Below are positions 37,807 through 55,255 of a stretch of 64,000 nt of DNA, piece after piece. The stretch is from Planotetraspora mira (GTDB lineage Bacteria; Actinomycetota; Actinomycetes; Streptosporangiales; Streptosporangiaceae). Each line of letters opens with the position of its first letter. Positions within the stretch are counted from its first letter, which is position 1. Location of the stretch: the NCBI RefSeq assembly GCF_016863275.1, contig NZ_BOOO01000047.1:1-64000 (forward strand), read 5' to 3'. The position numbers and the translations under genes are program-made. Under the pieces are notes generated by a model. It was not told where the DNA came from. It saw nothing but the letters and a program-made list of their open reading frames with translations, and ran no database searches.

Positions 37807-39669
37807 TCAGTCGGCAGGTATCAGGGTTGCGAGGAAGTCGCGGGTGGCTGGATCGACTGCGTAGATGATCGTGCCGCGCATCCCGCGGGTGAGTAGCACT
37901 TTGTAGACGTTGCGGGCGAGCTGGTCGAAATCGGCGTCCGGTACGGCCTTCTTGCTCTTGAAGGCGGGGTCCTTGTTCTCAGAGCGAACTGTGACGAGAG
38001 ATCCGTCTCGGGCTACAAGGTCGGGTCCGATGATGACGCCGGACCAGTCGTACTCGAAGCCTTGGGCGGTGTAGATGCATCCGACCTGGTCGAATCCGTT
38101 TTGTTCTGTCGCCCACAGCATGCTGGGTGGTGCATCCCCGACGGCCCGATCCTTTTTGACGTTCCAGGGTCGTGACCAGTTGCCGATGACGACGTCTTCC
38201 ACAAGGGAGTTGTCGGGTCGCGGGTCACTCCACGGCCAGCAGAAGCCGGCGGTCATCCGCGCGGTGCCGGGCTTTGCAAGGAGAGCTGCTTCGAGTTCGT
38301 GAGGGGAGTGCGCTAGTCGTACTTCGAAGTCCTGGTCGCCGTCCCAGGGCATAGGGCTTTCTCTGTCGAGGCCGAGCAGGCGAAGTACCCAGTGCTCGTA
38401 CTTGCGGCTGCCGCCGCAGCGGAACTGCTCGTCGAGGGAGACACGGTTGACTGCATAGCCGCGTGCCCGTGCGTACTGCTCGATCGTGTGGACGGTGCCG
38501 AGCTCGCCAGGTCGTACGACCTGGTGCTCGTCAAGCAGGAAGACAGGGACGCGGGCGGCGGTCATCAACTCGTCTAGTTGAGGCCGGCCGGTGCGCTTTG
38601 CTGCCGGGGTGAAGCGGCTGGTAGACGTTTCGCGGATGCGGTGGGCTTCGTCGCAGATCAGGACGTCAAGGCTGTTCTGCTCGGCGTCGGTGAAGCTGTT
38701 GAAGTACATGAAGAGGTTCTTGATGCGCGTGCTGCCGCGGCCGGGGTATCGGCGCATGGTCTGGGTGAACGACTGTGAGCCAGTCGCGTGTAGTGCCGTT
38801 CTGCCTTGCCGGTAGAGCTCACCCAGCAGGGACAGGGCGATGACGCTCTTGCCGCTGCCGGGGCCGCCGGTGACGATGACGACCTGTTTGAAATCAGAGC
38901 GGCGTGCCTTGTCGACGGCGCGCATGACCAGTTCGTAGGCAACCTGCTGCTCGTCGAGGAGCGTGAATTGCTCGCGCTCGCGAATCTCGTTGGCGGCGTA
39001 GGTCATGAGCTGCTTGCTGGGCGCGACCGGACTGCTCAGCAGCCGGTCGGCGGCCTCGGCGCCGGGCTTGTCGGACAGATGCTCCCGCAGGTAGGTGTGG
39101 AAGTCACCGCGGCGCTGCTTGGTGAAGAGTCTGCTTCGCTCATCCCGCACCTGGTCATGCAAGCCGTCCACATCGAGGTCCATAGCGTTGTGCAGGTAAG
39201 CCACGCCGTGGACGGACAGTGGCCGGTCCTTAAGCACGCTCAGGAAGTCGGACATGTATTCGCAGTAGCGCCGGACCTGCTCGGCGGGGTTGAGTAGTTC
39301 CCTTCCTGGCATGCCGTCCACGATGACTAGGTGCTCGCCCTGGTCGGACGGCTCGGCGCGACTCCACTGCTTGAGCTCTACGACGACGTAAGAGTCCTCA
39401 CCAGTGCGCGGGTGCACGCCAGCCAACACGACGTCGGCTCGCTTGCTGGTCAGTGGAAGCTTGTACTCGACCAGCATCTCGACTTTGCTGAGCCCTGCGT
39501 CGGCCAGGTCTCTGGCGAGCGCGGGAAGGCTCCGTTGCCATGATCTAGCTTCGGAGGGGGATGGGCCGCGGCCAGTGGTCATCCGCAGGTGCTCGCTGAT
39601 CTGCTCGGCAAGCGCAGCTTCGTTGGGCGAGGCAATCAGGCTCTCCACGGACAGCCGTAATGCCGTCAC
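37807..39669 (-). CDS. PD-(D/E)XK nuclease fused to DUF2075 (Schlafen-like) helicase
   Basis: The 620-aa protein begins at GTG 39669, with GGGGGAG upstream. Residues 60-110 carry a restriction-type fold: LVEYKLPLTSKRADVVLAG (D79) and YVVVELKQWSRAEPS (E98-x-K100), the D...ExK triad. Residues 262-600 form a helicase: Walker A GGPGSGKS at 268-275, Walker B ICDEAH at 338-343 and an arginine-rich tail motif (ARNVYKVLLTRGMRGTIIY). DUF2075 proteins are Schlafen-group helicases and occur in defence islands. It is followed upstream on the same strand by a MazG-like gene; the two may form one system. Confidence 0.82.
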   Translation of the reverse strand: MTALRLSVESLIASPNEAALAEQISEHLRMTTGRGPSPSEARSWQRSLPALARDLADAGLSKVEMLVEYKLPLTSKRADVVLAGVHPRTGEDSYVVVELKQWSRAEPSDQGEHLVIVDGMPGRELLNPAEQVRRYCEYMSDFLSVLKDRPLSVHGVAYLHNAMDLDVDGLHDQVRDERSRLFTKQRRGDFHTYLREHLSDKPGAEAADRLLSSPVAPSKQLMTYAANEIREREQFTLLDEQQVAYELVMRAVDKARRSDFKQVVIVTGGPGSGKSVIALSLLGELYRQGRTALHATGSQSFTQTMRRYPGRGSTRIKNLFMYFNSFTDAEQNSLDVLICDEAHRIRETSTSRFTPAAKRTGRPQLDELMTAARVPVFLLDEHQVVRPGELGTVHTIEQYARARGYAVNRVSLDEQFRCGGSRKYEHWVLRLLGLDRESPMPWDGDQDFEVRLAHSPHELEAALLAKPGTARMTAGFCWPWSDPRPDNSLVEDVVIGNWSRPWNVKKDRAVGDAPPSMLWATEQNGFDQVGCIYTAQGFEYDWSGVIIGPDLVARDGSLVTVRSENKDPAFKSKKAVPDADFDQLARNVYKVLLTRGMRGTIIYAVDPATRDFLATLIPAD

Positions 39670-39773
39670 AGGCTCCCCCAGGCAGCACGAGATAACTCGT
39701 GCGGGTGGGGGCGTATCCGGTCCGGCGTCAGCCGGGTAAGCGCGGAAGCCCGTCGGGCCGCATCACATGGTCA

Positions 39774-40151
39774 TCATGAGGTTAGTGGAGGCGCTTTCCT
39801 CGCGGAACCGCGAAAGAGATCAGCATCGTAACGACGCTCGCTCTCGTTCAGTTTGGCGTTGGCGGCCTCGATGAGCTCCACACCAAGAAGATCGGCGAGG
39901 CGGACGAGGTAGAGAGTTACGTCGGCAAGTTCGGACCGTACGCGTCCGAGAGCCTCTCCATCCAACCTGCGCGACTCGTCAGGCGTCAGCCATTGCAACT
40001 CTGCCACCAACTCGCCGACCTCGCCGGCGAGGGCCATCGCCAGGTTCTTCGGGGTGTGGAACTGCTCCCAATCGCGTGCGCGGGCAAAATCCTGCAACCG
40101 CGAAGCTAGCTGATTTAAGTCGGTCGTCACGTTCGTAACGGTACTGCTCAT
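39774..40151 (-). CDS. MazG-like nucleotide pyrophosphohydrolase, second copy
   Basis: The 125-aa protein starts at ATG 40151 (an alternative start lies a few codons later). It shows LASRLQDFARARDWEQFHTP, MALAGEVGELVAELQWLTPD with ExxE metal ligands, and SELADVTLYLVRLADLLGVE. This matches the short MazG/dCTP-pyrophosphatase-like group. It lies 104 bases upstream of the PD-(D/E)XK-DUF2075 gene on the same strand, so it is probably in the same transcript. A nucleotide-clearing enzyme next to a nuclease-helicase suggests a combined defence module. Confidence 0.82.
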   Translation of the reverse strand: MSSTVTNVTTDLNQLASRLQDFARARDWEQFHTPKNLAMALAGEVGELVAELQWLTPDESRRLDGEALGRVRSELADVTLYLVRLADLLGVELIEAANAKLNESERRYDADLFRGSARKAPPLTS

Positions 40152-40934
40152 GGCTCTGAGCAGCATTTGACTCGGCCGGTGCTGCAGGGCGGTGTCCCCG
40201 TGGATGGTGTGCTCGACCCTGCCGCAACCCCTCGAACGTGCGCTGAAGGGCGGACTGGAGTGGTCTGGTGCGGGGCTTACACCGCAGCGTGAAATCCTCA
40301 CCCGACCCGCTGGTCATTTCCTGGTCGCGGCACTAGATGGGCCCGCGGTCGAGGCCATCGGCCGGACCAGCGTGACCGCGCCTGCCGCCGGCCAGAACGC
40401 AGGTGATCAAAAAGATACGACCTGCCCGCCACCCCGACGAGAGTGGCAGACGTGCATTAGAAGGTACGTCCGTCCCGGAGGGAGCCAGTCGCGGTCGCAA
40501 CCGGCGGGAGCGCCTCCGGAACGATCTACGTCATCTGCGCTCCCTGGGTCTAATCTCCTAACGAATTCCAAGGCGAAACCCATAGGGTCGGCGCCTCCAT
40601 GACCCCGACGGGGCTCGCATCGGCACGCCCGACCTGACCAGCGCCGAAGGCCCTCGCCAACTGTCCGGCGAGGGTCTTTGCCATGTCTGGAGCGACGTCC
40701 AAACGGCCTGGCACCCTCCCTGCTTGATACGAACTACGCATCAGCTCGCCGCCGGAAACTGTCTGCTCAGTGGAGGAATGTTGACGGCAACAAAATCAAT
40801 AACTTCCCAGCTCAAGCGGCATTAAGTGCCATCTGAAGCTGCAGCGGCTTGCTGCATCACGTTGCGAACTAGATCATGCCGCCGCTATTCTCTGATCATC
40901 GTCCGGAGGCTTGTGAGCAAGGAGACTCGAACGG
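40152..40934. other. 783-base non-coding stretch with an orphan terminator
   Basis: No frame here has proper codon bias over a useful length. A GC-rich hairpin lies at 40647-40678. The 3' part, from about 40720, is AT-richer and probably carries the promoter of the HNH gene at 40935 (AAGGAG at 40919-40924). Confidence 0.5.
40647..40678 (+). terminator. Intrinsic terminator without an annotated upstream gene
   Basis: A stem of 12 bp (40647-40658 with 40667-40678, AAGGCCCTCGCC and GGCGAGGGTCTT, one G-T pair) encloses an 8-base loop. It has no gene upstream on the plus strand after 40151, so it may end an unseen small RNA or a lost gene. Confidence 0.65.
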
Positions 40935-41807
40935 ATGAACGACCCCCTCGAGAACGTAGACCGACCGCTCCCTGAGGCTGGCAGCAGTGTGATCAGGACT
41001 CTGTTTGCGAACCGGGAAGCGGAGGAAGCGTGCCGCTTCCTGCTGGAACGGCGGGATGACCCGCCGACGATGGCTGAATGGCTGGAGCGCTCGCGTCAGG
41101 TCCTGGGCAAGGCAAACGTCCATAGCCAGCGTCGGCTACGGGATGTGCGAGACCAGTTCATCGTCACGTCCTATCGCCGCACCGGCGATGGGGAATGGGT
41201 GTATCGCATCGATGGGTGGAGCTCGACACCCGCCACCGACAAGGGGCACCGGATCTCGCCCAAGTTGGAGGCCGAGGTCTTCACCCTCCGCGGCAGGTTC
41301 TGTGCAATGTGCGGTGCCGGTCCCGACGAGGCCAAGCTGCAGATCGATCACATCGTGCCGCGATCGTGGGGTGGCAAGACCGAGCTGGGCAACCTCGAGC
41401 CGTTGTGCCAGAAGCACAACAACGGCAAGAAGGCGTTCTTTCAGACGCTCAATCCCTACAGCGATGCTCTCGCTGCCGCGCTCGGCAGGCCCAACCCGTG
41501 GGAACGTATAGGTGAGCTGCTAAAAGCATTCGCAGAGCGCGGTGAGCATACGCCAGCCGAGCTGCTTCCCGTGGCGGCCAAGGACACACACCGGGGAGAT
41601 CCGAAGAAGCGGCTTCGCGAGCTTCGATTCGTCCTCGGCTGGGACATCGTTGCTCACCGAGTGAAAGACAACGGCGTTACCGAGGTAACGTACGAATTGC
41701 GATCTTGGAAGCCTTGGCCGGCCGAGGGTGCCTCAGAGGCTGTTAATCGCTACGAACGTGAGCGCAAGAGCCGCAAGGCGGCTCAGGCCGACAGCGACGA
41801 AGCTTAG
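40935..41807 (+). CDS. HNH endonuclease
   Basis: The 290-aa protein starts at ATG 40935 about 10 bases after AAGGAG. The nuclease segment is at 121-170: RFCAMCGAGPDEAKLQIDHI, with C123, C126, D138 and H139, then ELGNLEPLCQKHNNGKK with N153, C158 and H161. The N-terminal 110 residues (PTMAEWLERSRQVLGKANVH, then SQRRLRDVRDQFIVTSYRR) are helical and may bind DNA. The C-terminal 100 residues are basic and charged. It resembles HNH enzymes of restriction type, but its partner methyltransferase, if any, is not adjacent. It is a single gene just before the Druantia-like cassette. Confidence 0.8.
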   Translation: MNDPLENVDRPLPEAGSSVIRTLFANREAEEACRFLLERRDDPPTMAEWLERSRQVLGKANVHSQRRLRDVRDQFIVTSYRRTGDGEWVYRIDGWSSTPATDKGHRISPKLEAEVFTLRGRFCAMCGAGPDEAKLQIDHIVPRSWGGKTELGNLEPLCQKHNNGKKAFFQTLNPYSDALAAALGRPNPWERIGELLKAFAERGEHTPAELLPVAAKDTHRGDPKKRLRELRFVLGWDIVAHRVKDNGVTEVTYELRSWKPWPAEGASEAVNRYERERKSRKAAQADSDEA

Positions 41808-42359: not shown

Positions 42360-44339
42360 ATGCGATCTTACGACTGGTGGCAGACGCGCCTAGCCGATGA
42401 GTTCTTCGGCCCGGATAAGAATGGCACTCCGGTGCTGTTCTTCATCGACAAACAGGAGCAAGAGCGGCTGCACAACGGCACCATAGGCATCGAGGCCCTT
42501 GGCCCCGCAGTGAGTGCCGAGCTGGATTGGCGCAAAAATCCATTTTGGCCAATTTTGGACCGTATCACTCGCTGGCGGCGCACAGGCCAGGAAGATCCTC
42601 CGCCGTGCCTGCCCCTGCTGGCAGCATGCGTGCTGGCCGCAACCGAGGTGCAGCGAGCCGCGCAAGCGGGCGCTCCGCCCTACTACGTGAGGCTAGCTGA
42701 AGTCCTTAAACCGTCCTATGGCAGTGCACCCAACGAGGACTTCCTGAAAAATGGATACGAAGATGTGGTGGAGTGCTGGGATAACCTGAGTAAGTGGCTC
42801 AGCGTGCAGGGCGGAAGCCGCGGCCTAAACACCGCCCACGCAACTAAAGGGCGTGAGAGAATTGGCTATGCGCAATCACAAGCACTTGTCCGCGCCTCGG
42901 ATCGCGATGCCCTGACCGCGTTCTTCCGTCTGACTGATACATCCAAGAGGAACGTTCCAATATCGGAACCCAAGCTGTTGCGTGACTTACGGATGTGGTC
43001 CGGGAAGAAGTCCTTGTCTCCCCGGCTGAGAGAAGCGCTTGATACACGTGCCGACGACGTTCTTCTGGGACCGCTACTGGTCTCGCTGGTGGGCTCGACT
43101 CACATCACAACCCCGCTCACATCACGCGAGACCTTGAAGGAGCTAAAGCTCCGGCTTGCTGCCGACGAGGATCCCGTTGATGGCTGGCAACTGCACTGGC
43201 ATGCTGCCACAGTGGAGGGTATTTCCGCAGACATGCTGAAGTATTCCCAAGGGGAACTTACGGTTAAAGCTCAAGATGGATATACGTCCTATATCCTGTC
43301 CGGTCGCCTGCCTGATCCAGCACTAGCACTATCGCATGGATTTTCTGCGCGTGGGAGCGCGCTCAGAGTCTCGATCTCTGCCGGAAGACATGTCATCGCG
43401 CTGAGGGAAGATTTCGTAGCAGGCGCGTGGGTCGAGGTGTCAGAGCTGACGACCTTTGAACCTTATGTGTTTATAATCGACCGCTCGGGCGAACAGCGGA
43501 TGCAAACATTCTTGCACCACGCAGGTCTCCCATGGGGAACCCCCCAAGAAACTTCGGCCGACGGCTGGTATGCACTTCCGCAAGTCGAATTCGCGGATGA
43601 CGGGCTGCTTGGCCGGGCTTTTAACGTCGTTGGATTGTCGGGGACCTCCCATACGCCTTCGCGACGCCCACGCTTGGATGGTGGGCTCAGAGTGCGGCTG
43701 GATAGCGAACGTAGCAACTATCTGGTGGGTGGTGAGCCGGATGCGATTTTGCCCGCGCTCCCTGCGGGAATGGCGACGTTACTAGACGAAAGTCCGCTGG
43801 CCGGAGATTTAGAAGCGCGGATCTCGCTACGGGGCCGCGATCTGAAGAGCGGCCCCCACACGATCAAGTCGCCGAATGGTGACAAGTCCTTTGAACTCCA
43901 CAATCCTGCCGAACCAAGGCAGCTGCCCGAAATAGACATCACGCCGCTTAGCGGAATATCCGATCAGGCGATCAAGGTGCGTGTTGTCGGCGACTCGTTC
44001 TTCATCCGAGCTGATGGAACATTTATCCCCGTTCCAGGTACCCGCCTGCCGGCCTGGTGGACCCGGCGTGGCACGGGTCTTCAAGTAGATGGATATGCCG
44101 ATATCAACGTCCCTGACGACGCAGTCTGGGTCGTCACTACTGGGGAGAATGACCGCAACACAATCGTGTTGCTTCGCGATATCGAGCCGGCGTTCGGCCA
44201 CCTGGGTGAGCCAGCAAGAGAATACTGGACACGGCTGGTTCTCGATCAACAAAGCGGCACGCCACATTTCAAAAAGTGGCGGAGATATCGGGAAGAATTT
44301 TTTAGGCGATCGATGCAACCGGGAGCTCATCATGTTTGA
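42360..44339 (+). CDS. First gene of a Druantia-like cassette (DruF position)
   Basis: The 659-aa protein is taken from ATG 42360; ATG 42339 is an alternative seven codons upstream. It begins MRSYDWWQTRLADEFFGPDK. No enzymatic motif stands out. The second half (from about residue 320) looks beta-rich (SGRLPDPALALSHGFSARGS, then GRHVIALREDFVAGAWVEVS). It overlaps the next gene by 8 bases and leads directly to the 1800-aa helicase, so the three genes form one operon. In the Druantia type II order M-F-G-E this would be DruF. That name is inferred from position and size. Confidence 0.6.
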   Translation: MRSYDWWQTRLADEFFGPDKNGTPVLFFIDKQEQERLHNGTIGIEALGPAVSAELDWRKNPFWPILDRITRWRRTGQEDPPPCLPLLAACVLAATEVQRAAQAGAPPYYVRLAEVLKPSYGSAPNEDFLKNGYEDVVECWDNLSKWLSVQGGSRGLNTAHATKGRERIGYAQSQALVRASDRDALTAFFRLTDTSKRNVPISEPKLLRDLRMWSGKKSLSPRLREALDTRADDVLLGPLLVSLVGSTHITTPLTSRETLKELKLRLAADEDPVDGWQLHWHAATVEGISADMLKYSQGELTVKAQDGYTSYILSGRLPDPALALSHGFSARGSALRVSISAGRHVIALREDFVAGAWVEVSELTTFEPYVFIIDRSGEQRMQTFLHHAGLPWGTPQETSADGWYALPQVEFADDGLLGRAFNVVGLSGTSHTPSRRPRLDGGLRVRLDSERSNYLVGGEPDAILPALPAGMATLLDESPLAGDLEARISLRGRDLKSGPHTIKSPNGDKSFELHNPAEPRQLPEIDITPLSGISDQAIKVRVVGDSFFIRADGTFIPVPGTRLPAWWTRRGTGLQVDGYADINVPDDAVWVVTTGENDRNTIVLLRDIEPAFGHLGEPAREYWTRLVLDQQSGTPHFKKWRRYREEFFRRSMQPGAHHV

Positions 44340-45228
44340 TCCCGATCTTATCGTCGCATGGCTTGCGGAGGTGCAGCACGGGTCAACCGTGGCTCTCAGG
44401 AAAGATATCGCTTGGGCGTCGGGCGCCGAGCCAGCAAATGCTTCACGCTGGATGGAGATGCTTGACGTGCTCGGGATCGTAGATATCAGCTGGGCATCTC
44501 AGACTTGGCGGGCCAGACCTCTTACTCTCACGCCGCTGCCCGGCCGGTACAACGTTGCCGTGCTGGCTGGTGCACGTCCGGACGCGGCGTACTGGAGTCA
44601 CCTGCCTGGAGTGGTATTCCGCAACTATCCCTCGCCTGCCAACCAGCTTCCATTACCTGCAAGCGTTTGGATGCAATGGGATGATCTGGAGGAGACGCGG
44701 AAGATAGCTGCTGCTCTTGGGGCAGAGCCGGTGTCATGCGTAGCAGAGACTATTGCGCGTCGCCTCGATCGAATCGCACTCGGTGAACTAACAGCCCCCC
44801 CGGCTCGCACCACAGGCCTAGCGCGATTTGATAACTCAACTGGAAACTTCCTTTCATGTGCCTACTCGTCTCATCCCCAGGATGGGTTGTACGAGTACAA
44901 GTTGTATGGGCGGCTTCCCCGCTACGCCACGGTCAGGAATGGAAGCTGGTACGCGGCAGGCAAGCGTATCGGTATCCACCTTGAACTTCCGTCAGGTTCC
45001 TTTCCTCTTCAATGGCGACCTGACTCCGGTACTCGTGATGGTCAGACCCTCGGGCAGCTCATCGCTCCGTATAAAGCACTGCTGCCAAAACCTCAGGAGG
45101 AAGCTGCCGTCATGTGCACGGGCCTTCCCCCGCTCAAGACTGAAGCTGGCCGTGTATATGACGGCGTGCCACGCTGGATCGCCGGCCGAATTGCACAGTC
45201 CCTACGTCGCAACCTGGAGATCCGGTGA
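44332..45228 (+). CDS. Second gene of a Druantia-like cassette (DruG position)
   Basis: The 298-aa protein starts at ATG 44332, with GGGAG 8 bases upstream, inside the previous gene's end. It reads MFDPDLIVAWLAEVQHGSTV, then a winged-helix-like stretch (ALRKDIAWASGAEPANASRW). A beta-rich segment follows (YEYKLYGRLPRYATVRNGSW), similar in flavour to the C-terminal part of the preceding protein. No nuclease or ATPase motif is visible. Its GTGA overlap with the helicase gene shows tight translational coupling. DruG is the matching position in Druantia type II, again by inference. Confidence 0.6.
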   Translation: MFDPDLIVAWLAEVQHGSTVALRKDIAWASGAEPANASRWMEMLDVLGIVDISWASQTWRARPLTLTPLPGRYNVAVLAGARPDAAYWSHLPGVVFRNYPSPANQLPLPASVWMQWDDLEETRKIAAALGAEPVSCVAETIARRLDRIALGELTAPPARTTGLARFDNSTGNFLSCAYSSHPQDGLYEYKLYGRLPRYATVRNGSWYAAGKRIGIHLELPSGSFPLQWRPDSGTRDGQTLGQLIAPYKALLPKPQEEAAVMCTGLPPLKTEAGRVYDGVPRWIAGRIAQSLRRNLEIR

Positions 45229-48200
45229 CTCGTCTGGATTACGAAGGCCTGGATGCCTTTGGCGCATTTGACGCAATGCGTGATGCGTACTTGCGCTATT
45301 ACGACACAGCTTTCCGGCTTCGCGATAAACGGCTTCAGGATGAACGCAGAAATCTACTAGACCGCGCCGGCGGGGTATACGCGGAGCCATATATCGAGCT
45401 GCGTCCTGAATACGCGTCATCGGGGCGCACACTCGCGGAATCGGTAGCCGACGCTGGTGCGGTCCCAGAACTCGCTGAGTTCGCTGAACTGGGGCTGCTT
45501 CCGCGGGGCAGAGAGCTATATACGCACCAAGAGCAAGCCCTGCGTCACTCGATGATGGCAGGCCGCAATGTAGTCGTCACCGCCGGCACTGGCTCAGGCA
45601 AAACCGAAGCGTTCCTCTTGCCGATCCTCGCGGACTTACTCGCTGAATCCCGAGAGTGGTCCGGCACGCCGGCATCCTTGAGACAGTGGTGGAATAGGCC
45701 TTCTTCCCCCTTCGAAGCGCAGCGCTCCGGGGAGACCGGCCGCGCTCAGGCCGTCCGAGCTCTCATTCTCTATCCCATGAATGCGCTCGTCGACGACCAG
45801 CTTGTCCGGCTTCGCCGGGCGCTAGACAGTGATCAAATCCGGGCTTGGCTGGACGCCAATCGTGGCGGTCATAGGTTCTATTTCGGGCGGTTCACCGGCG
45901 CCACGCCTGTAACCGGCAGTCAAGACCAGAAGTACAACGTAGATGAGCTTCGAAAATATCTTCAGGCCACTGAGGCTCGTAGTGAGCGAGCACATGAGTC
46001 CGGCGACGAAGATACTCGCTATTTCGTTCCGCGGTTGGGGGGCGCCGAGATGGTGTCTCGATGGGACATGCATGATGCCCCGCCGGATATCCTTATTACC
46101 AACCACTCCATGCTTAACGTCATGCTGTTGCGAGACCGCGACCAGCACTTCTTCGAACGCACCAGTGAGTGGCTGGCTCGCAACCCAGAGGCGCGGTTCA
46201 CACTTGTAGTGGACGAGCTGCATATGCACCGGGGAACGGCTGGCACGGAGGTTGCCTACCTTATCCGCAATCTCAGACACCGCCTCGGTATCATCGATAA
46301 GCCGGAGAAACTGAGAGTGGTGGCCACGTCGGCGTCGTTGCAAGATGATCGAGAACAGGACCGCCGATTCCTCCAAGAATTTTTCGCCGTCGCAGAGGAT
46401 ACTTTCCACTTTATCCCGGGCGAAGCGGCTAAAAGGAAAAGGGTAGATTCTACTGATCTGTCCGCTCACGCAGTGCAGCTTGCTGATGTAGCGGAGAAGG
46501 AAATCTCTGCGGATGACGCGGTGCGCCTCCTCGAAGATACAGGTGCGGGAGAAGTCCTTTATTCGGCCCTTCGCAGAGACCAAGAAGGTCCTTCCTCGCC
46601 AGCTCTCCCCGCGTCCGAACTCGCTGAGCGCATGTTCCCCTCGGCTTCCCCAGACCTCCGCGCGGCCGCCCTGATGGGCGCGACTTCCGCAATACGTGCC
46701 GCCGGTGAGGCGGAGGAACTTCCTAAGATTCGCATCCATCTGTTCTTCAGGAACGTGGCTGGCATCTGGGCGTGCTGCAGTCCATCGTGCGAGGCCATCC
46801 CTGGGGGTCAATACGAGGGGCGCACTGTCGGACGGCTGTACACGGCCCCTCGATCACAGTGCGAGTGTGGCGCCCGTGTTCTCGAACTGCTGTATTGCCA
46901 GGCGTGCGGTGACGTCATGCTCGGCGGCTATGCACCACGCAGCGCCTTCAACAGGAACTCCTTCAATTCTTATCTGCTGCCCGATACCCCCGATCTGTCA
47001 CGAATTCCTGATCAGTTCAGGCAGGACCGGACTGCCTCGAACTACATCGTGTACTGGCCCTCGACTGGACCGCAGCAAGCAGATGATGACGCCCAGTGGA
47101 CGGCAGAGGCCAAATCAGTAACTTTCACCTTCCGCCGGAGCGTCCTCTCTCCGAAGACTGGTCACCTTAAGAACAGGGAGCCCGGGGCTACTGGGTGGAG
47201 TTTCCATATACGCGGGATCATCGACCGGCAGACTGGTGAGCCTCGGGTCAACGCAGAGGGACTTCCGCCATTTCCCACTCGCTGTCCGTCCTGCAGTGCC
47301 GACTGGGAAAAGCAGGTGACACGGGGCCGAGACGGCAAGCCTAAGCGGCTTGCTCTTGGCGACCCGGCTCGCCTGCGGTCACCAATCAGGGCCATGCGGA
47401 CTGGTTTCGAGAAGATCAACCAGGTCTTGTCAACCGAACTAGTCGGCCAGTTCACGGATCCAGGTCAGCGAAAGCTCATCGTCTTCACAGATAGCCGGCA
47501 GGACGCAGCCAAGCTAGCCGCGGGTCTTGCACTACGTCACTACCAGGACCTTGTGCGACTCCTAGCCTTGCAGGAACTGGCCTCATCCGCGGTGACAGCG
47601 GAAGACATAGAACAGGCCCGAGCGTTCCATCAAGGTGATCACACAGTTGGAAATAAGGCGGCATTCGAGCGCTTGAAGCAGCGGGATAAGGACACTCTGA
47701 AGACGCTCCGCCTCGCATGGCTGGATGAAGACGAAAGAGGAGTCGCTGCTGCGTCTGCCAAGTTCACCGAACCACCCACGCTGGAGTACCTTGCGAAGAT
47801 ACTCGTCCATCGCCGCCTGCTAGCTCTCGGCACTAATCCTGCGGGAACAAGGCAATCAGTTCAGCGGCAAGGAGGAGGTCCCTGGTACGAACTATACGAT
47901 TGGAACACCGAGGAGCCAGAACTCCTTCACGGCATTACCGCCGCGCAGAGGGAAGCTGCCTTCTCAGCCGAGGAGGATTTGCTAGAGAACACGGTCGCCG
48001 CACTGTTCTCGGGGACGAACCGCGACTTTGAGTCGCTTGGGCTTGGCTGGATAGAGGCCGCAAGTGCAGCCCCGACCAAAATTCCCGGACTTGGTGCAGC
48101 TAGCCTGCGAATTCTAGCCGAACAGCACCGCTTTGTCCTGATACGGGATGAAGCGCCAAAGCCGCCCAAGCGGCTCCGGGAGTATTGGAAGAAAGTCGCC

Positions 48201-50627
48201 GCCGCAACCAGCGTTGAACTTGACGATGTCCAGGTGCAGGTGGAGGCCTACTGGCGAGGCATCGTTCAGGGTTATCTGATTGACCCGAGAAAAGTAGTGA
48301 TCCGGCCCAATGGCAGCCACGCATGGGTCTGTTTATCGTGCCAGCGGCAGCACCTTACGCCCAGCGCCGGCATATGCACAGCATGCGGCAGGCCTTTGCC
48401 TCCAGACCCTGTCAACGTCAGTGCACCAGAAGCCGATTACTATGCATGGAAGGCCGCCGCAGGAGACGGGGATTTCCGCTTGAACTGCGCCGAACTCACT
48501 GGCCAGACTGGCAGAATCGAGGCACAAACCCGTCAGGCACGCTTCCAGAAGGTCTTTCTCAGCGAAGAAGAAGAAAGCCTGGTTCACGAGATCGATGTGC
48601 TCTCCGTCACCACGACCATGGAAGCCGGCGTGGACATTGGGCCGCTATCGGCAGTTGTCATGGCCAACATGCCGCCCACGCGTTTCAACTACCAGCAGCG
48701 GGTCGGCAGGGCTGGGCGCAGATCTTCCCCTGTAGCGGTAGCCCTCACTGTCTGCCGCGGCCGCAGCCATGACGAGCACTACTTCAGGCATCCCGAAGCC
48801 GTCACCAACAACCCTACTCCGCCGCCCTACCTAGCCATGGGACGGCCAGAAATCCTCCAGCGTGCCGTTGCCAGCGATCTGCTGCGCCTGGCATTCAATG
48901 CGTCCGAGGATCATGGCGGTACATCGAATGTGCACGGGCAATTCGGCCTGGCCGAGCATTGGGCAGAGGCAGCGCCAGAGATCCGTCAGTGGCTCTTGGA
49001 TAATCCTGAGGTGGTCCAGGAGACAAAATCGGCATTAACGACGCTGACTGCCTTCCCTGCAAATACTCCTCACCTCAATAATGCATGGCTCATATCTGTC
49101 CTCGATAGGATTGATGAGGCTGCGACAGCCGTCGGGGAAAGTCTCGAACTCAGCGAACGCTTAGCGCACATGGGAATTCTTCCCATGTTTGGTTTCCCAA
49201 CGCGGGTGCGCCAGCTATACCTGCAGGAGCCGAGGAAACGGTATCCCTGGCCTCCAGACGAGGCAGTGGACCGCGATGTCGCCTTGGCCGTATCTCAGTT
49301 CGCTCCCAGGAGCGAGATCGTCAAAGACAACGAAGTGTACACAGTGGTCGGGGTCACAGAATTCGAGCCGCGCCCGCAAGGCCCGGTTGCCATTGAGGAA
49401 CCTCTCACCAAGCAGCGCAGAATCGGCCTATGTTCAAACTGTAATCATTTGGCCGTGGATCCCGCCCCGTCTACGGAAGCCTGCACACTGTGTGGGGTTG
49501 AAGGATTCCGGATTGTGGACCTACGCGAGCCAGCCGGCTTTCGTGCAGGAGCGCCGAGGGATTTCGACGGCAACTTCTCCTGGTCTCCAAGAACGGTCTC
49601 CGCTCGGGCAACCACCAAGCTGGATGAGCTGAAGCATGAGCCGTGGAAGGCTGGGGCGTTCCTATCCGGCCTAGGCAGCCGCTACGTCGTCAACGACAAC
49701 AACGAGAAATCATTCTCCTTCCAGCGGGCAAGAGGATCCTGGGGGGGCTACGTCGAAGCCGGTGCTCAGGGCATCGACGATATGGCACGAGGGAGCGGCG
49801 AATATTTCTCCGTCGCACTGGGCGCGGTACTGCCCACAGATTTCCTCTTTGTGGGCCCGCAATCTCCGGTCGATCAAGGATTCGGGTACCGGCTCAACCT
49901 CGAGAGTCACAAGCCGTTCTGCGGCGCAGACATCAGCCAGGGGCGCCGGGCTGCCTGGTACTCGCTAGCATTCCTCATCCGAAGTGCTGCAGCGGCATAT
50001 CTTGACGTTCACCCACAGGAACTCATTGCCGGCGTCCATCCTGGCCCGCACAACGAAGGCACGGCGCTCTACGCCTTCATCGCTGATGCACTAGAAAACG
50101 GAGCGGGTTTCAGTACCCATCTCGGCAACGCTGACGTCATCCCAGACTTCACCGAGTATGTGAAGGGCTACATAAATTCACTCGCAGAGTCGAAGCACGC
50201 TGGGAACTGCACCGCTTCGTGCTACGACTGCCTGCGGGATTACTCGAACATGGCCTTCCATCCGCTACTTGACTGGCGATTGGCATCTGATCTATTCACT
50301 GTGTTGTCCGACGGCAACGTTCAGCATCAGCACGAACGCGAGCAAAAGGCAGTGCAAGCACTGAAGGAGATCTATGAAGGTACGCTGCTCGCCGCCGACA
50401 CTACCGTTGTCGGTGTAAAGGCCAGGGGGCAGCGCTGTGCCGTCGTAGTCAAGCACCCTCTCGAGGCATGCGAGCAAGATCTGGTAAGCCCACGCCTCAC
50501 GTCGGCAATCGCAGCGGCAATGAACTACACGGGCGACGCGTCACGCATCGTTACATCAGATTGGTTCACGCTCGAAAAGAGCCCCCTAGTGATAATTGAT
50601 CAGCTCGCTCAACAGAGCCAACGCTGA
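45225..50627 (+). CDS. druE: 1800-aa DEAD-box helicase with DUF1998 domain, DruE-like
   Basis: This 1800-residue protein is a superfamily 2 helicase fused to a DUF1998 C terminus. Motif I is GTGSGKT at 121-127, motif II DELH at 330-333, motif III VATSASL, and motif VI QQRVGRAGRR at 1157-1166. Several Cys pairs suggest zinc sites in the insert (CSPSCEAI, CQACG; later CSNCNH, CTLCG). The C terminus has C1662, C1666 and C1669 before LRDYSNMAFH, the DUF1998 zinc signature. Size, fold order and operon place fit DruE, the hallmark protein of Druantia anti-phage systems. The mechanism is not fully known. The start GTG 45225 overlaps the preceding stop. Confidence 0.82.
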   Translation: MTRLDYEGLDAFGAFDAMRDAYLRYYDTAFRLRDKRLQDERRNLLDRAGGVYAEPYIELRPEYASSGRTLAESVADAGAVPELAEFAELGLLPRGRELYTHQEQALRHSMMAGRNVVVTAGTGSGKTEAFLLPILADLLAESREWSGTPASLRQWWNRPSSPFEAQRSGETGRAQAVRALILYPMNALVDDQLVRLRRALDSDQIRAWLDANRGGHRFYFGRFTGATPVTGSQDQKYNVDELRKYLQATEARSERAHESGDEDTRYFVPRLGGAEMVSRWDMHDAPPDILITNHSMLNVMLLRDRDQHFFERTSEWLARNPEARFTLVVDELHMHRGTAGTEVAYLIRNLRHRLGIIDKPEKLRVVATSASLQDDREQDRRFLQEFFAVAEDTFHFIPGEAAKRKRVDSTDLSAHAVQLADVAEKEISADDAVRLLEDTGAGEVLYSALRRDQEGPSSPALPASELAERMFPSASPDLRAAALMGATSAIRAAGEAEELPKIRIHLFFRNVAGIWACCSPSCEAIPGGQYEGRTVGRLYTAPRSQCECGARVLELLYCQACGDVMLGGYAPRSAFNRNSFNSYLLPDTPDLSRIPDQFRQDRTASNYIVYWPSTGPQQADDDAQWTAEAKSVTFTFRRSVLSPKTGHLKNREPGATGWSFHIRGIIDRQTGEPRVNAEGLPPFPTRCPSCSADWEKQVTRGRDGKPKRLALGDPARLRSPIRAMRTGFEKINQVLSTELVGQFTDPGQRKLIVFTDSRQDAAKLAAGLALRHYQDLVRLLALQELASSAVTAEDIEQARAFHQGDHTVGNKAAFERLKQRDKDTLKTLRLAWLDEDERGVAAASAKFTEPPTLEYLAKILVHRRLLALGTNPAGTRQSVQRQGGGPWYELYDWNTEEPELLHGITAAQREAAFSAEEDLLENTVAALFSGTNRDFESLGLGWIEAASAAPTKIPGLGAASLRILAEQHRFVLIRDEAPKPPKRLREYWKKVAAATSVELDDVQVQVEAYWRGIVQGYLIDPRKVVIRPNGSHAWVCLSCQRQHLTPSAGICTACGRPLPPDPVNVSAPEADYYAWKAAAGDGDFRLNCAELTGQTGRIEAQTRQARFQKVFLSEEEESLVHEIDVLSVTTTMEAGVDIGPLSAVVMANMPPTRFNYQQRVGRAGRRSSPVAVALTVCRGRSHDEHYFRHPEAVTNNPTPPPYLAMGRPEILQRAVASDLLRLAFNASEDHGGTSNVHGQFGLAEHWAEAAPEIRQWLLDNPEVVQETKSALTTLTAFPANTPHLNNAWLISVLDRIDEAATAVGESLELSERLAHMGILPMFGFPTRVRQLYLQEPRKRYPWPPDEAVDRDVALAVSQFAPRSEIVKDNEVYTVVGVTEFEPRPQGPVAIEEPLTKQRRIGLCSNCNHLAVDPAPSTEACTLCGVEGFRIVDLREPAGFRAGAPRDFDGNFSWSPRTVSARATTKLDELKHEPWKAGAFLSGLGSRYVVNDNNEKSFSFQRARGSWGGYVEAGAQGIDDMARGSGEYFSVALGAVLPTDFLFVGPQSPVDQGFGYRLNLESHKPFCGADISQGRRAAWYSLAFLIRSAAAAYLDVHPQELIAGVHPGPHNEGTALYAFIADALENGAGFSTHLGNADVIPDFTEYVKGYINSLAESKHAGNCTASCYDCLRDYSNMAFHPLLDWRLASDLFTVLSDGNVQHQHEREQKAVQALKEIYEGTLLAADTTVVGVKARGQRCAVVVKHPLEACEQDLVSPRLTSAIAAAMNYTGDASRIVTSDWFTLEKSPLVIIDQLAQQSQR

Positions 50628-50640
50628 TCCGCGGTAAAAC

Positions 50641-50679
50641 CGGTCGTAGCTGGGCGTCGGGACGACCCAGCTACGACCG
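50641..50679 (+). terminator. Strong intrinsic terminator after the Druantia-like operon
   Basis: A perfect 14-bp stem (50641-50654 with 50666-50679, CGGTCGTAGCTGGG and its complement) starts 14 bases after the helicase stop. Confidence 0.88.
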
Positions 50680-50818
50680 CGGCGAGATCCGCAGGAGTAA
50701 CCGGCAGGCAATATCACGCAGGATGGCACGCTTCAAAGACTAAGCTCGCCTGCTGGCGCCCAGGTGACGTGGTTGCCCTGATAGGTGTAATCCGTGCCGA
50801 TGGCCGTTGTCGCGGCCG

Positions 50819-52120
50819 CTAGCTGATCGTTTGGGGCTTGGTGCGGACGTACTCGTGACGCAGATGATCGTTTTGGCCGACGAACGCTTTGAACTCAACG
50901 AGCTTGTAGGCCAGGTCTCCCGTGCTCTGCTCTACTTTGGCGATTTCAAAGTCTCGGCTGAGGAGGGTGATGCGCCTCTCGATTTCCGGATCGGTGAGCT
51001 GGATGTCGGCTTTGGCCATGATTTGCTCGACAGTCATGAAATCGCCGGCAGCGCGGAGAGCCCGATAAACGAGGTCATGCGCGCGGTCTGTCTCGAGCTG
51101 ACGCTTCTCGCCCTCGTGGCGGAGTGCAGCACCGATTGCAAGGCCGAGAGCCTTGGCAACTGGCGGCGGAAAGGCGTTACCTATTTGGCGATAACGAGAG
51201 GTTTTGGGGCCTGTGAAGGTCCATTTGTATTCCTTGTGGTCCCAGCCCTGCAGCCTTGCCACCATTTCACAGGTCAGTTTGGGGCCGTATTCTGTCATTG
51301 GCCGCTTGTCGGAGTAGGGAGGCGCGGTGTCATGGACGCCGTATGCGTCGACGCCAAGGGCCGCCCATGCCCTCTTAGCGCGCGTGGGGCCAAGATCCGC
51401 CCCGCCATGTTTCTTGGAACCGCCAACGATGGTGGGCGCAATGTCGTTGGCCTTCTTCACCCAATCGTCCACGCCCTCCCACCCATTCTCTGCCATCAGA
51501 TCGCGAAGAGTCTCGCCCACACTGGGTGGGCGTTCTTCGGAACCTTCGGGCCATTGGAAGTATGCGAAGTCGTCTGGTCTCATGGCGACCAGAACAAACC
51601 TGGGGCGTAGCTGTGATACGCCGAACTTCGCGGCATGCAAGAGCCGCCATTCTGCCTGATATCCCAATTCTTGTAGTCTGTCGAGGACGTGCTGGCGGTA
51701 CCCCCTAAAGCGCGGCATGCTAAGCCCTCGGACATTTTCCAAAAGCAGGGCGCGTGGCTTCACAACGGCAACTTGCTCAACTGCCCAGGCGAAGAGGTCG
51801 CGTTCATCGGTGGCGCCAAGCTGCTTGCCGGCGATCGTGAAGGGCGGGCATGGAACGCCTCCAGCAAGGAGATCTATCCCTGTGAACTTGTCTGGCGTCC
51901 AGATCTGAGGGTCGGCCACGTCACCCTGCACGACCCACTGACCGTCTTCGACGTGCTCGGGGTTGCTGACCTCGATATTGCGGAGTCGAGCGTTTTCACG
52001 GAGAGTGCTGCAGGCATTGGAATCAAGCTCGAACGCCAGGCGGTGTTTAAAGCCCGCAAGGTGCAAGCCAAGGGCTTGCCCGCCGGCTCCGGCGCAGATC
52101 TCGACAACCTCAAGAGCCAT
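50819..52120 (-). CDS. DNA cytosine-5 methyltransferase (NaeI-type M or DruM-like)
   Basis: The 433-aa protein starts at ATG 52120, 8-9 bases after AAGGAG. It has the class I m5C-MTase motifs in order: EICAGAGGQALGL (SAM binding), GGVPCPPFT with catalytic C91, ENVRG at 129-132, and QLRPRFVLV. Motif IV reads PCPPF rather than the usual PCQPF. A C-terminal extension of about 90 residues (LVYRALRAAGDFMTVEQIMA) is winged-helix-like. It faces the Vsr and NaeI-type genes and is convergent with the Druantia-like operon. It could protect against the NaeI-type enzyme, be the DruM of a Druantia type II system, or serve both. Confidence 0.88.
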   Translation of the reverse strand: MALEVVEICAGAGGQALGLHLAGFKHRLAFELDSNACSTLRENARLRNIEVSNPEHVEDGQWVVQGDVADPQIWTPDKFTGIDLLAGGVPCPPFTIAGKQLGATDERDLFAWAVEQVAVVKPRALLLENVRGLSMPRFRGYRQHVLDRLQELGYQAEWRLLHAAKFGVSQLRPRFVLVAMRPDDFAYFQWPEGSEERPPSVGETLRDLMAENGWEGVDDWVKKANDIAPTIVGGSKKHGGADLGPTRAKRAWAALGVDAYGVHDTAPPYSDKRPMTEYGPKLTCEMVARLQGWDHKEYKWTFTGPKTSRYRQIGNAFPPPVAKALGLAIGAALRHEGEKRQLETDRAHDLVYRALRAAGDFMTVEQIMAKADIQLTDPEIERRITLLSRDFEIAKVEQSTGDLAYKLVEFKAFVGQNDHLRHEYVRTKPQTIS

Positions 52121-52217
52121 AGAGGGCACTCCTTGCGTGATCTGTGGTGGGGACGGTTCGGCAGAAGTTGTATCGTCCCGGAAGGGAGGACTGGGCCACA
52201 GGAAGACTAGGCAGGCC

Positions 52218-52733
52218 ATGGCAGAGAGTAGCCGAGAGCAGGCGCGGAAGCTGGCGCACGCGCGTGGCCGCTATCCGGCGCCGCTCAACGACGGGCGATC
52301 GCGCAACATGCAGGCTAACCGGCGCGCTAATACCAAGCCGGAAGTGGCTCTGCGTAGCGCGCTCCACCGGCTGGGCTATCGGTACCGGAAGGACTATCGA
52401 CTTGACCTGCAGGGCGTGAGAGTACGTCCGGACATCGTCTTCACGAGCCGCAAGATCGCTGTCTTCGTTGACGGTTGCTTCTGGCACGTCTGCCCAGATC
52501 ACGGGCGTCACCCCAGCACCAACGAGTGGTACTGGGCACCAAAACTGCTCCGCAACATGGAACGTGATCAGCTCGTCAACGCGGCCCTGGAAGCCGCGGG
52601 CTGGCATGTTGTCCGGCTCTGGGAGCATGAGCCCATGCCTAATGCGGTGCAGGCCGTGGTCACAGCGCTGAGCTCCCGTGCCGAACATAGGAGCGAGAGT
52701 AGCGAAGAACGACGACAGAATCCGACCACCTGA
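52218..52733 (+). CDS. vsr: Very short patch repair endonuclease (Vsr)
   Basis: The 171-aa protein starts at ATG 52218. It has RRANTKPEVALRSALHRLGY, then VRPDIVFTSRKIAVFVDGCF with D72 and the motif FVDGCFWH at 83-90, the catalytic core of Vsr nickases. Vsr corrects T:G mismatches that arise when 5-methylcytosine deaminates, so it is normally next to an m5C-methyltransferase gene. Here the methyltransferase gene is divergent, 97 bases away. This adds strong support that the neighbour really makes 5mC in vivo. Confidence 0.93.
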   Translation: MAESSREQARKLAHARGRYPAPLNDGRSRNMQANRRANTKPEVALRSALHRLGYRYRKDYRLDLQGVRVRPDIVFTSRKIAVFVDGCFWHVCPDHGRHPSTNEWYWAPKLLRNMERDQLVNAALEAAGWHVVRLWEHEPMPNAVQAVVTALSSRAEHRSESSEERRQNPTT

Positions 52734-53160: not shown

Positions 53161-54102
53161 GTGATCAATGAGCCGCTACCTGGTATGAGTACGATCGATC
53201 CTGCGTTAGAAGCCGTCCACGCTCACCTGCTGAGCGTGGACCCCCGAGGTGCACGGATGGCAGCGGCGATCCGACGTACGTTCGACATGTTGCTTGATGG
53301 CCAACACACGGGCCGGTTTCGCTGGGAACAGCTCCACAAAACTGAGAAGACCCACTGTGGCACGCTGATTGAGATCAATCTCCAGAGGGAGTTCGGCTTC
53401 GAGGATGGCAGAATCCTCGACTACTTGATCGTCGGAGTAGAGGTCGACTGCAAGTACTCCCAGAAGTTGGCTGACTGGATGATTCCGCCCGAGGCGGTTG
53501 GCAGAATTCTTCTAGGCTTATGGGCTAACGACAAGGACGGTCTCTGGAGTGCGGGATTGATCCGAGCGGACGAAGAAAATCTCAACAAGGGGGAGAACCG
53601 CGATGCTAAACGCAGCCTAAGTAAACAAGGTCGCGGGGCGATTCGCTGGCTGTTCAAGAGCGCGCCGCTACAGGAGAATGTGCTCCTGCGCCTAACAGCT
53701 GAGGACATCGACGCGATTTTCGGCCCCGCAAGCGGCCAGAAGAAGATCAATGAGTTGTTCCGGCGTGCCCAGGGCATGCTCATCAGCCGCAGCGTTGTTG
53801 CCACCGTCGCCATGCAGGAGGACTACATGAAGCGGGTCCGAGGTAACGGTGGTGCGAGGACGGCCCTGCGCAGCGAAGGAATCGTCATATTCGGCCAGTA
53901 CAAGAGCCATGCTCAAGCGGCAACGGCTCTCGGCCTGCCGACACCTGGCCCGGGTGAGTTCGTCAGCGCGAGACTCGCACGCCGTCAAGCACACCATGGA
54001 AACTTCCGATGGGTTGAGCTCGACGGGGAGAAATGGGTCCTAGCAACAACGGTAGATCCAATCGAGCCGGGCCCTCGGCTCCCTGAAATCGGCCGGCTCT
54101 GA
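53161..54102 (+). CDS. NaeI-like type IIE restriction endonuclease
   Basis: The 313-aa protein aligns by memory over nearly all of NaeI (317 aa). The nuclease domain has LHKTEKTHCGTLIEINLQRE with E71, then D87, and VDCKYS with D96-x-K98, one residue offset from the reported NaeI active site. The C-terminal CAP-like domain carries INELFRRAQGMLISRSVVAT and YMKRVRGNGGARTALRSEGI. NaeI cuts GCCGGC and needs a second bound site. The Leu equivalent to NaeI Leu43 is kept. The likely methyltransferase partner is at 50819-52120, across the vsr gene. Confidence 0.9.
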   Translation: MINEPLPGMSTIDPALEAVHAHLLSVDPRGARMAAAIRRTFDMLLDGQHTGRFRWEQLHKTEKTHCGTLIEINLQREFGFEDGRILDYLIVGVEVDCKYSQKLADWMIPPEAVGRILLGLWANDKDGLWSAGLIRADEENLNKGENRDAKRSLSKQGRGAIRWLFKSAPLQENVLLRLTAEDIDAIFGPASGQKKINELFRRAQGMLISRSVVATVAMQEDYMKRVRGNGGARTALRSEGIVIFGQYKSHAQAATALGLPTPGPGEFVSARLARRQAHHGNFRWVELDGEKWVLATTVDPIEPGPRLPEIGRL

Positions 54103-54144: not shown

Positions 54145-55110
54145 CTATCTCGACGCCTCGGCCTCGCAGAAACTACGCCACAAGGAGTGCAGAATCTCGT
54201 CCGTCGGCCGCCATGTCAACTGCGTAGGCTCCCTAAGGCGACTGCCGCTCAGTCCGGCGTACTCCGTCTGAAGGAGCAACTTCGAGACGAGGATGGTCCT
54301 TGACTCGGGCATGACCGCCAGCATTTGAAGGTCAAGCAGCGTATGGATATCGGCCCGCAACAGCAGCCCGTTGGTCACGGTGTTGGAGGCTGGCCCTCGA
54401 TAGGGACGCAGATGTGCAGCTTCAAGGACGTCTTCCACCGGACAACCAGTGACGGCGCATGAGTAGCCGTACGCCCTCAATAGGTCCTGGCGGAAGCCAC
54501 GCTGCCCGCGACGCATGACGATCTGTCGGTAGACGCGTCGGCGGGCGTCGTAGTCGTCATCTGGCGGGTCATCTTGCTCGGATACGGCCTCTTCGGCATC
54601 GCGGATGAGGACCTCGGCGGCGGTGTTGCCGCGTGGCCGGCTAGGGCCGACAAGGCTTTCGAAGAAGAAGTAACCGTCCTCCCACGCCACCGGGTGAGCT
54701 AGGCCGCGAACGATGTATTGACTGCGGCCATTCTTGGGCGGTATTTCATCGAGTACTCCCACGGGGACGGCGTCCCGCAGGCAGGCCATCAGCCCTCTGT
54801 TGGTGTACATGCGGTCACGCTGAGCCGGGGAAAGGCCTTCCTGGTGATAGTTGAAGAACCAGCTGCCGTCCTCTCTTGTCCGCACTGCACCGTCTGGGTA
54901 AGGACTTCGAAGGTTGATTCGGATGCTTAGGGCGTACTCAAGGTCTGCCGGCTTGTAGATTCCTTTCGGCGCGGACACTAGGAAGGATCCGTCGTCCATC
55001 CGGCCGGGAAACGGGGTGATTGCACCCGCGTGGTCAACGAACCAGGAAAGACGCCGCTGATGACTGTCAGCGAGGGTGCGGAGCTTGGTGAGGGCTTGAT
55101 CGCCGGACAT
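54145..55110 (-). CDS. SRA-like and HNH nuclease, probable modified-DNA restriction enzyme
   Basis: The 321-aa protein is taken from ATG 55110, which follows a TATGCA-like -10 box and would give a short leader. Residues 40-150 look like a YDG/SRA-type reader: ALSIRINLRSPYPDGAVRTR, DGSWFFNYHQ, VPVGVLDEI, QYIVRGLAHPVAWEDGYFFF. Residues 218-262 are the HNH nuclease: CAVTGCPVEDVLEAAHLRPY, then NGLLLRADIHTLLDL, with H233, N247 and H256. Such proteins restrict DNA carrying modified cytosine. Its presence next to a resident 5mC methyltransferase is odd, since host DNA must not be a target. Confidence 0.82.
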   Translation of the reverse strand: MSGDQALTKLRTLADSHQRRLSWFVDHAGAITPFPGRMDDGSFLVSAPKGIYKPADLEYALSIRINLRSPYPDGAVRTREDGSWFFNYHQEGLSPAQRDRMYTNRGLMACLRDAVPVGVLDEIPPKNGRSQYIVRGLAHPVAWEDGYFFFESLVGPSRPRGNTAAEVLIRDAEEAVSEQDDPPDDDYDARRRVYRQIVMRRGQRGFRQDLLRAYGYSCAVTGCPVEDVLEAAHLRPYRGPASNTVTNGLLLRADIHTLLDLQMLAVMPESRTILVSKLLLQTEYAGLSGSRLREPTQLTWRPTDEILHSLWRSFCEAEASR

Positions 55111-55255
55111 GGCGCCAGTTTTGCATAGTTTGTAATAATCCCGCACGCCATCGAGCCCTACTGGGGGCCTGTCCTTTGAACGGCCCCGTCACGGATTCGG
55201 TGGTAAAGAAGGGTCAGTTGCATCATAGTGAGTCATTCTTGATCTTGATGAACTG

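Follow-up and report, generated by a model that had tools for sequence, protein, structure and literature searches.

What kind of defense system is encoded by three overlapping genes on a contig of the actinobacterium Planotetraspora mira, and does the cytosine methyltransferase gene just downstream belong to it? The window, by which we mean the whole stretch that was analyzed (64,000 nucleotides, positions 1 to 64,000 of NZ_BOOO01000047.1), had been described from its letters alone as carrying a type II-like Druantia system, perhaps a divergent or new variant, with its two upstream genes in the places of druF and druG. We find that the three genes are an intact operon of Druantia type IV, which is a published type and not a new one. 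Next to the operon lie genes for a 5-methylcytosine (m5C) methyltransferase, a Vsr mismatch endonuclease, and a NaeI-family restriction endonuclease. We think it likely that these form a complete and separate restriction-modification (R-M) module of the NaeI type, so that the operon and the module would be layered defenses within a defense island. What would matter most about the locus is that Druantia operons like this one are recurrently paired with restriction modules of the GCCGGC type.

A type IV Druantia operon

The operon has three genes:

42360..44339, + strand: druF (DruF4), first gene of the operon; 659 amino acids (aa) from the ATG at 42360, in an open reading frame (ORF) that opens at 42339; PADLOC PDLC00052
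44332..45228, + strand: druL (DruL4); 298 aa; PADLOC PDLC00057
45225..50627, + strand: druE (DruE4); superfamily 2 (SF2) helicase of 1800 aa with a DUF1998-like region; PADLOC PDLC00051; PF00270, PF00271

The ORF calls and translations bear out that the genes overlap on the same strand, druF and druL by 8 bases and druL and druE by 4 bases. The longest ORF for druL opens at 44089; the ATG at 44332 is favored by homologs and by the DruL4 profile match, which begins at residue 86 of that ORF. All three genes are open throughout in the window, and DruL4 is present just once in the 9.03-Mb genome (profile search).

To classify the operon, we relied on the PADLOC-DB profiles. DruF matches DruF4 best (347 bits, 4.3e-104; the runner-up is DruF2 at 317.1 bits), and the complete list for DruL contains only DruL4 models at E ≤ 1 (186.9 bits, 1.3e-55). 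For the helicase, the top model among the matches listed is DruE4, with 2296.5 bits over residues 8-1798. This is 420 bits above DruE2 (1876.5 bits) and far above the other models among those matches, whether from Druantia (DruE1, 651.6 bits; DruE3, 422.9 bits) or from elsewhere (DpdJ, 66.1 bits; DrmA, 45.6 bits). A DISARM or Dpd helicase can therefore be rejected, in a comparison that had no model specific to MrfA. With 187 to 2296 bits, the matches of the three genes cannot be due to chance. In the PADLOC paper (Payne et al. 2021, PMC8565338), type IV is described as consisting of DruE, DruF, and DruL; DruM and DruG, which type II has, are absent. Because the top models of all three genes are of type IV, with DruL instead of DruG, the operon is type IV and not type II. 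DruG models do not appear in the complete PADLOC lists of DruF, DruL, Vsr, NaeI, or the HNH proteins at 40935-41807 and 54145-55146, and DruH models do not appear in those of DruF and DruL. Thus, the sequence-only reading was right to call this a Druantia system with DruE and DruF, and the gene that it took for DruG is druL. It had also described the helicase as a DEAD-box protein with a C-terminal DUF1998. The DEAD domain is clear (PF00270, 1.9e-17), as is Helicase_C (2.1e-7), but the match to MZB/DUF1998 (PF09369) has 19.3 bits and falls below the Pfam cut-off of 24.2.

To compare gene orders, we scanned genomes of bacteria and archaea with DruE alone. This matched 32 stretches, of which 18 were confirmed as Druantia loci; they are one draw of DruE proteins near the window's, with short flanks in some. 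All 18 are actinobacterial, and all have the order F, L, E, as in the window, although some are in pieces. In this and other samples, L019, L021, L032, and L046 have Druantia genes that are interrupted, truncated, or split (L022 is on the same contig as L032, and L046 contains a run of N, so its breaks are possibly assembly faults). The genes for DruF and DruL are fused into a single ORF at L017:5094-8555 (1153 aa) and at L018:9230-12652 (1140 aa), and because of these fusions, the two proteins probably act together.

An alignment of 23 DruE sequences, with the window's included and L018, L025, L026, and L027 left aside, has a conserved cysteine cluster and motifs that we take to be Walker A, DELH, and motif VI. 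In the same alignment, the last 100 residues have no recognized conserved nuclease motif. This agrees with an inactivated Vsr-like domain that is reported for the DruE of types I and II (PMC12458937). Type III (DruH-DruE) is described as having the same YprA-family helicase core in its DruE (PMC12458937, PMC13192584), and there DruE is said to be a helicase-nuclease (PMC13192584); the window's DruE differs in having no recognizable catalytic motif in its C-terminal 100 residues, as well as in its low score for DruE3 and the lack of DruH matches upstream. A separate candidate nuclease, the PD-(D/E)xK protein DruK, is encoded directly behind druE in 10 of the 18 loci (L029, L030, L034, L035, L040, and L042-L046), with weak traces in L031. 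It was not found behind the window's druE. We considered whether DruK and NaeI are mutual alternatives and rejected this, as NaeI is found both with and without DruK.

DruF and DruL have no Pfam matches at E ≤ 1. Their structural models differ in quality, with a predicted local distance difference test (pLDDT) of 79.4 and a predicted template modeling score (pTM) of 0.42 for DruF, and 91.9 and 0.89 for DruL. Searches against solved folds gave no match for either at E ≤ 0.001, and we do not count the weak fold matches of DruL (to MarR, IclR, and FACT middle domains) as evidence. By our own reading of the model, the start of DruL may have its elements ordered as in a winged helix. Druantia I and II have been viewed as related to CoCoNuT systems (according to PMC12458937), and these same searches leave a CnuB/McrB-like GTPase unsupported for DruF or DruL. 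Also, no stretch of viral contigs matched six peptide patterns from DruE, though more distant DruE proteins would escape such patterns. Our literature searches for Druantia type IV, DruL, and DruF found no experimental study of type IV. Among the matches listed, the PADLOC paper was alone on the subject. PMC13316683 concerns a type III Druantia in Mycolicibacterium.

The restriction module beside the operon

The following features surround the operon:

50642..50678, no strand: hairpin where druE and the methyltransferase gene converge; candidate terminator, no T-run
50819..52120 (end approximate), - strand: m5C methyltransferase; ORF open to 52219; PF00145, 2.5e-54
~52218..52733, + strand: Vsr mismatch endonuclease; TIGR00632, 157.9 bits, 1.2e-46; PF03852, 1.8e-19; ORF opens at 51963
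53161..54102, + strand: NaeI-family restriction endonuclease; PF09126, 380.6 bits, 5.9e-114; PDB 1ev7, E 1.3e-83
40935..41807, + strand: HNH protein, candidate accessory, upstream of druF; PF14279, 3e-9; PF01844, 1.8e-8

The convergent methyltransferase and the nearby vsr gene had both been noticed before, while the NaeI-family endonuclease and the HNH protein at 40935-41807 were overlooked. Vsr is divergent from the methyltransferase, and its start codon is inferred to be at 52218. The proposed terminator behind druE holds in part: the stretch 50632-50700 folds strongly (-37.2 kcal/mol, z -4.7, with none of 200 shuffles equal to it), but the hairpin has no T-run and a consensus terminator scan did not list it. 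The endonuclease carries a D...DCK motif (VDCK), which we presume to be catalytic.

The endonuclease family and this motif are shared with the type IIE NaeI R-M system (PDB 1ev7). In the window, as in many Druantia-free loci, an m5C methyltransferase and a Vsr adjoin NaeI; what differs is that this module stands beside Druantia. Among the loci examined, the eight methyltransferases closest to the window's (62-68% identity) are all in NaeI loci without an adjoining Druantia, although one of them (L137) comes from a genome with a Druantia on another contig. The closest Druantia-linked methyltransferases are at most 59% identical to it. Similarly, the window's NaeI shares 75% identity with the NaeI of L084, a Druantia-free module from the window's own family. 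Because its nearest kin are in Druantia-free NaeI loci and a NaeI-type endonuclease gene follows, the methyltransferase is probably best read as M.NaeI-like and as part of a module with Vsr and NaeI, and its earlier assignment as the system's DruM is probably wrong. The target of NaeI is given as GCCGGC (in PMC7653180), which would also be the target of the window's module if the family's specificity holds.

Druantia and NaeI at other loci

Twelve of the 18 Druantia loci have a NaeI-like gene no more than about 10 kb away (L029, L030, L033, L034, L036, L039, L040, and L042-L046). Methyltransferases of the window's family are present in 14 of the 18, and a different m5C methyltransferase in L041 brings the total to 15; none was found in L031, L032, or L037. 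Three of the six loci that lack an intact NaeI hold another endonuclease. In L035, there is an NgoMIV-type enzyme (PF09015, 3e-110; PDB 1fiu, E 1.4e-95) together with a methyltransferase of the window's family. NgoMIV is not in the window and its Pfam family is unrelated to that of NaeI, but the two are reported to share the site GCCGGC (PMC4081073, although NaeI's site is printed differently there; PMC7653180). In L035, it substitutes for NaeI. At L041:4117-6871, a NotI-type endonuclease and the m5C methyltransferase that goes with it occur together with a decayed remnant of NaeI (L041:6731-6871) just upstream of druF, which looks like an exchange of one restriction partner for another. The third, in L038, is an AspBHI-like modification-dependent endonuclease.

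How often would NaeI be expected? Counting the window's own genome, it was found in 4 of 396 genomes in a draw from the phylum and in 25 of 200 from the window's family, and it was over the cut-off in 11 of 249 genomes from the family of L040 (including that genome). DruL4 was found in 9 of the 200 family genomes and 5 of the 396 phylum genomes. For 15 of the 18 loci, we also searched the entire genome: 12 of these genomes have NaeI, which is at the Druantia locus in 10, a remnant there in one (L041), and elsewhere in one (the genome of L031), and none of the 15 has a second copy. As a control, we examined 20 loci with a BREX-type PglZ (taken by rank from among 33 phylum-draw genomes that passed the cut-off, skipping G531 and G457; five regions, L176-L180, are under 13 kb). 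These had no NaeI, no m5C methyltransferase by the family profile, and no Vsr. The difference between 12 of 18 and 0 of 20 is significant (p 7e-6, Fisher's test). If L044 and L045 are merged, then finding at least 11 of 17 has a binomial p of 7e-7, even on the assumption that 12.5% of genomes carry NaeI at exactly that place, and taking the loci as independent. Among the papers searched, none mentions both Druantia and NaeI.

In 10 of the 12 loci, NaeI adjoins the Druantia operon, on either side and in either direction. The gaps are anchored on domains, range from 42 to about 660 bp, and may contain small genes (the gap in L042 has a weak Vsr-like ORF). In L044 and L045, NaeI lies behind druFLE-druK on the same strand, with the methyltransferase and Vsr on the other side; from this arrangement, the endonuclease gene appears to have moved into line behind druFLE-druK and away from its methyltransferase. 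In L036, NaeI is on the same strand behind druE, about 120 bp away. The window's HNH gene is on the opposite side of Druantia from the restriction genes, and its relatives lie between NaeI and the methyltransferase in four other Druantia loci, two of which (L030 and L046) have the gene in one piece and two (L033 and L129) in several. With a cut-off of 100 bits, 5 of the 14 linked NaeI loci carry this HNH gene and none of the 37 unlinked ones does (p 0.0009); at 25 bits, the linked count is still 5 and the unlinked count is 2 (p 0.0125). The profile was built from four Druantia-linked copies, which favors linked loci in both counts.

Are the two systems inherited together? For 11 loci (without L045, a near-copy of L044, and L046, with its broken druE), distances between DruE proteins correlate closely with those between DruF proteins (0.963) or DruL proteins (0.906). 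The correlation of DruE with NaeI is weak (r 0.264, p 0.08), and rises without L034 and L043 (r 0.525, p 0.005). Strict co-inheritance of NaeI and DruE is thus rejected, and it is partial at most. Even between NaeI and the methyltransferase, in 19 Druantia-free loci, r is 0.137 (p 0.13). On the DruE tree, the NaeI label changes 7 times, as compared to 9.4 times in shuffles (42 of 500 were as low), so it is hardly clustered. The NaeI tree has 40 rows, 14 of them Druantia-linked, and 5 label changes, 4 of which are forced by well-supported branches; shuffles give 11.7 changes on average and none of 500 was as low. (Most Druantia-free rows come from the window's family, so a linked clade may hide unlinked members.) With so few changes, several of them forced, the links between Druantia and NaeI are clustered, yet they were gained or lost several times: the link changes at least 4 times on the NaeI tree, and in one locus the partner is NgoMIV.

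Each system also occurs alone. The four closest DruE relatives of the window (L019, L020, L032, and L037) are in Druantia operons without a module in the stretch examined; by the tree, L032 and L037 are from Streptosporangiaceae, to which the window's host most likely belongs too. Conversely, just 1 of 28 NaeI regions from the family and phylum draws has an adjoining Druantia (L079, on the contig of L017), as do 2 of 11 from a second family, one of which was the chosen center. Of 165 plasmid records that match DruE, we inspected four. Three Druantia-like plasmid loci, from Deinococcus and cyanobacteria, have no annotated methyltransferase, in gene tables that are incomplete and with only about 3 kb on one side of L105. 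The fourth, on a Rhizobium plasmid, has a Vsr and an m5C methyltransferase near the DruE match.

Two further observations concern these samples. The distant Druantia loci L018, L025, L026, L027, and L107 have some m5C methyltransferase nearby, and all except L025 have Vsr, so the pattern extends beyond NaeI. AspBHI-like endonuclease genes recur near Druantia or NaeI loci (L030:16554-17813; L034:1696-2996, in two pieces; L038:13631-14842; and L076:11611-12822).

Separate or coupled defenses

If the operon and the module are layered, separate defenses, as we think likely, then the DruF-DruL unit would sense or capture phage DNA and load the DruE helicase, taking the place of DruH in type III (in which DruH is described as the likely sensor and DruE as the effector; PMC13192584). 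DruE would then unwind replicating phage DNA, block it, or make it accessible to other nucleases, as the window's operon has no recognizable nuclease (the C terminus of DruE is free of such motifs and DruK is missing). In parallel, the methyltransferase would mark host sites with m5C, the endonuclease would cut unmarked DNA, and Vsr would repair the T:G mismatches that arise from deamination of m5C. The repeated co-occurrence of Druantia and the module in Actinobacteria implies that selection or co-mobilization brings the two together, but each also occurs alone. Several results weigh against this picture. Coincidence alone does not account for so frequent a pairing. The in-line NaeI genes of L036, L044, and L045 fit coupling better than they fit separate systems. 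Distances between methyltransferases track those between DruE proteins across the 11 loci (r 0.615, p 0.0006), and the window's methyltransferase scores best on a Druantia model, DruM2 (PDLC00032, 655.6 bits, versus 613 bits for the best MTase_II model among the PADLOC matches listed). Finally, the mechanism for DruF and DruL is drawn by analogy, and their models match no solved fold.

How should these results be explained? The correlation of distances and the DruM2 score, together with the close scores of DruF for DruF4 and DruF2, are what would be expected of a type II variant with the methyltransferase as its DruM subunit, as in the sequence-only reading. We consider this very improbable. 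Type II (DruM-DruF-DruG-DruE) has the DruE and DruF families in common with the window, but here DruL is in DruG's place, DruE4 is far ahead of DruE2, and the methyltransferase is convergent, is grouped with Vsr and NaeI, has its nearest kin in Druantia-free modules, and is missing near the four closest DruE relatives. The DruM profile may simply score best on the methyltransferase of a plain restriction module, and a restriction module beside the operon is outside of type IV as the PADLOC paper defines it (PMC8565338). Another explanation, which is a special case of layered defenses and overlaps with it in probability, is that the window's neighborhood is nothing more than unrelated genes that cluster in a defense island. 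Given that an eighth of the genomes in the window's family have NaeI, the window's NaeI and methyltransferase are drawn from this local stock, and further defense genes are close by, this could account for the window; but it leaves unexplained both the 12 of 18 loci elsewhere and the HNH gene that is common to other Druantia-NaeI loci, and we think it somewhat unlikely that clustering is the whole explanation.

Functional coupling of Druantia and the module is also possible. In the fullest form of this idea, the restriction enzyme (NaeI, NgoMIV, or another) would cut unmethylated phage DNA, the ends would load the nuclease-less DruFLE, and m5C would protect the host from both. The frequency of NaeI and of m5C methyltransferases at Druantia loci, the replacement of NaeI by an enzyme that is likewise specific for GCCGGC, the in-line genes, and the HNH counts (with their biased profile) all point this way. 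By analogy, the hypothesis that the restriction enzyme supplies the ends that DruE enters would match a report that the nuclease site of type III DruE admits only DNA ends, nicks, or unwound segments (PMC13192584). On the other hand, the four DruE proteins nearest the window's have no module, most of the NaeI modules examined are without Druantia, NaeI distances track DruE only weakly, and the three non-actinobacterial plasmid loci have no annotated methyltransferase. On balance, we find the composite unlikely. Only tentatively, then, might actinobacterial Druantia IV make up one half of a restriction system, the motor, which is repeatedly paired with GCCGGC enzymes and loads on their ends while a single m5C mark spares the host. 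If this were true, a restriction module could supply both a nuclease and a self/non-self signal to a Druantia in which neither is obvious, and type IV would be connected with the entry of type III DruE at ends, nicks, or unwound segments, as reported in PMC13192584.

Whether or not they are coupled, Druantia and the module lie in a defense island. The first 31 kb of the window have a G+C content of 0.63-0.72 (in 2-kb steps), which drops to 0.54-0.64 between 31 and 60 kb. A candidate Septu-like defense pair on the minus strand, at 35059-37442, consists of a PtuA1/PDC-M01A-like ATPase (658 and 705.5 bits in PADLOC) and an HNH partner similar to PDC-M01B (370.3 bits). The stretch 37807-40301 (minus strand) encodes a protein similar to Schlafen group 3 helicases (PF09848, 3.3e-88) and, adjoining it at 39774-40301, a MazG-like ORF that is below the Pfam cut-off. 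HNH_2 proteins are encoded at 31307-32263 (plus strand) and 54145-55146 (minus strand), and in L100 a protein closely related to the latter (610 bits, phmmer) is encoded next to a divergent NaeI-like gene.

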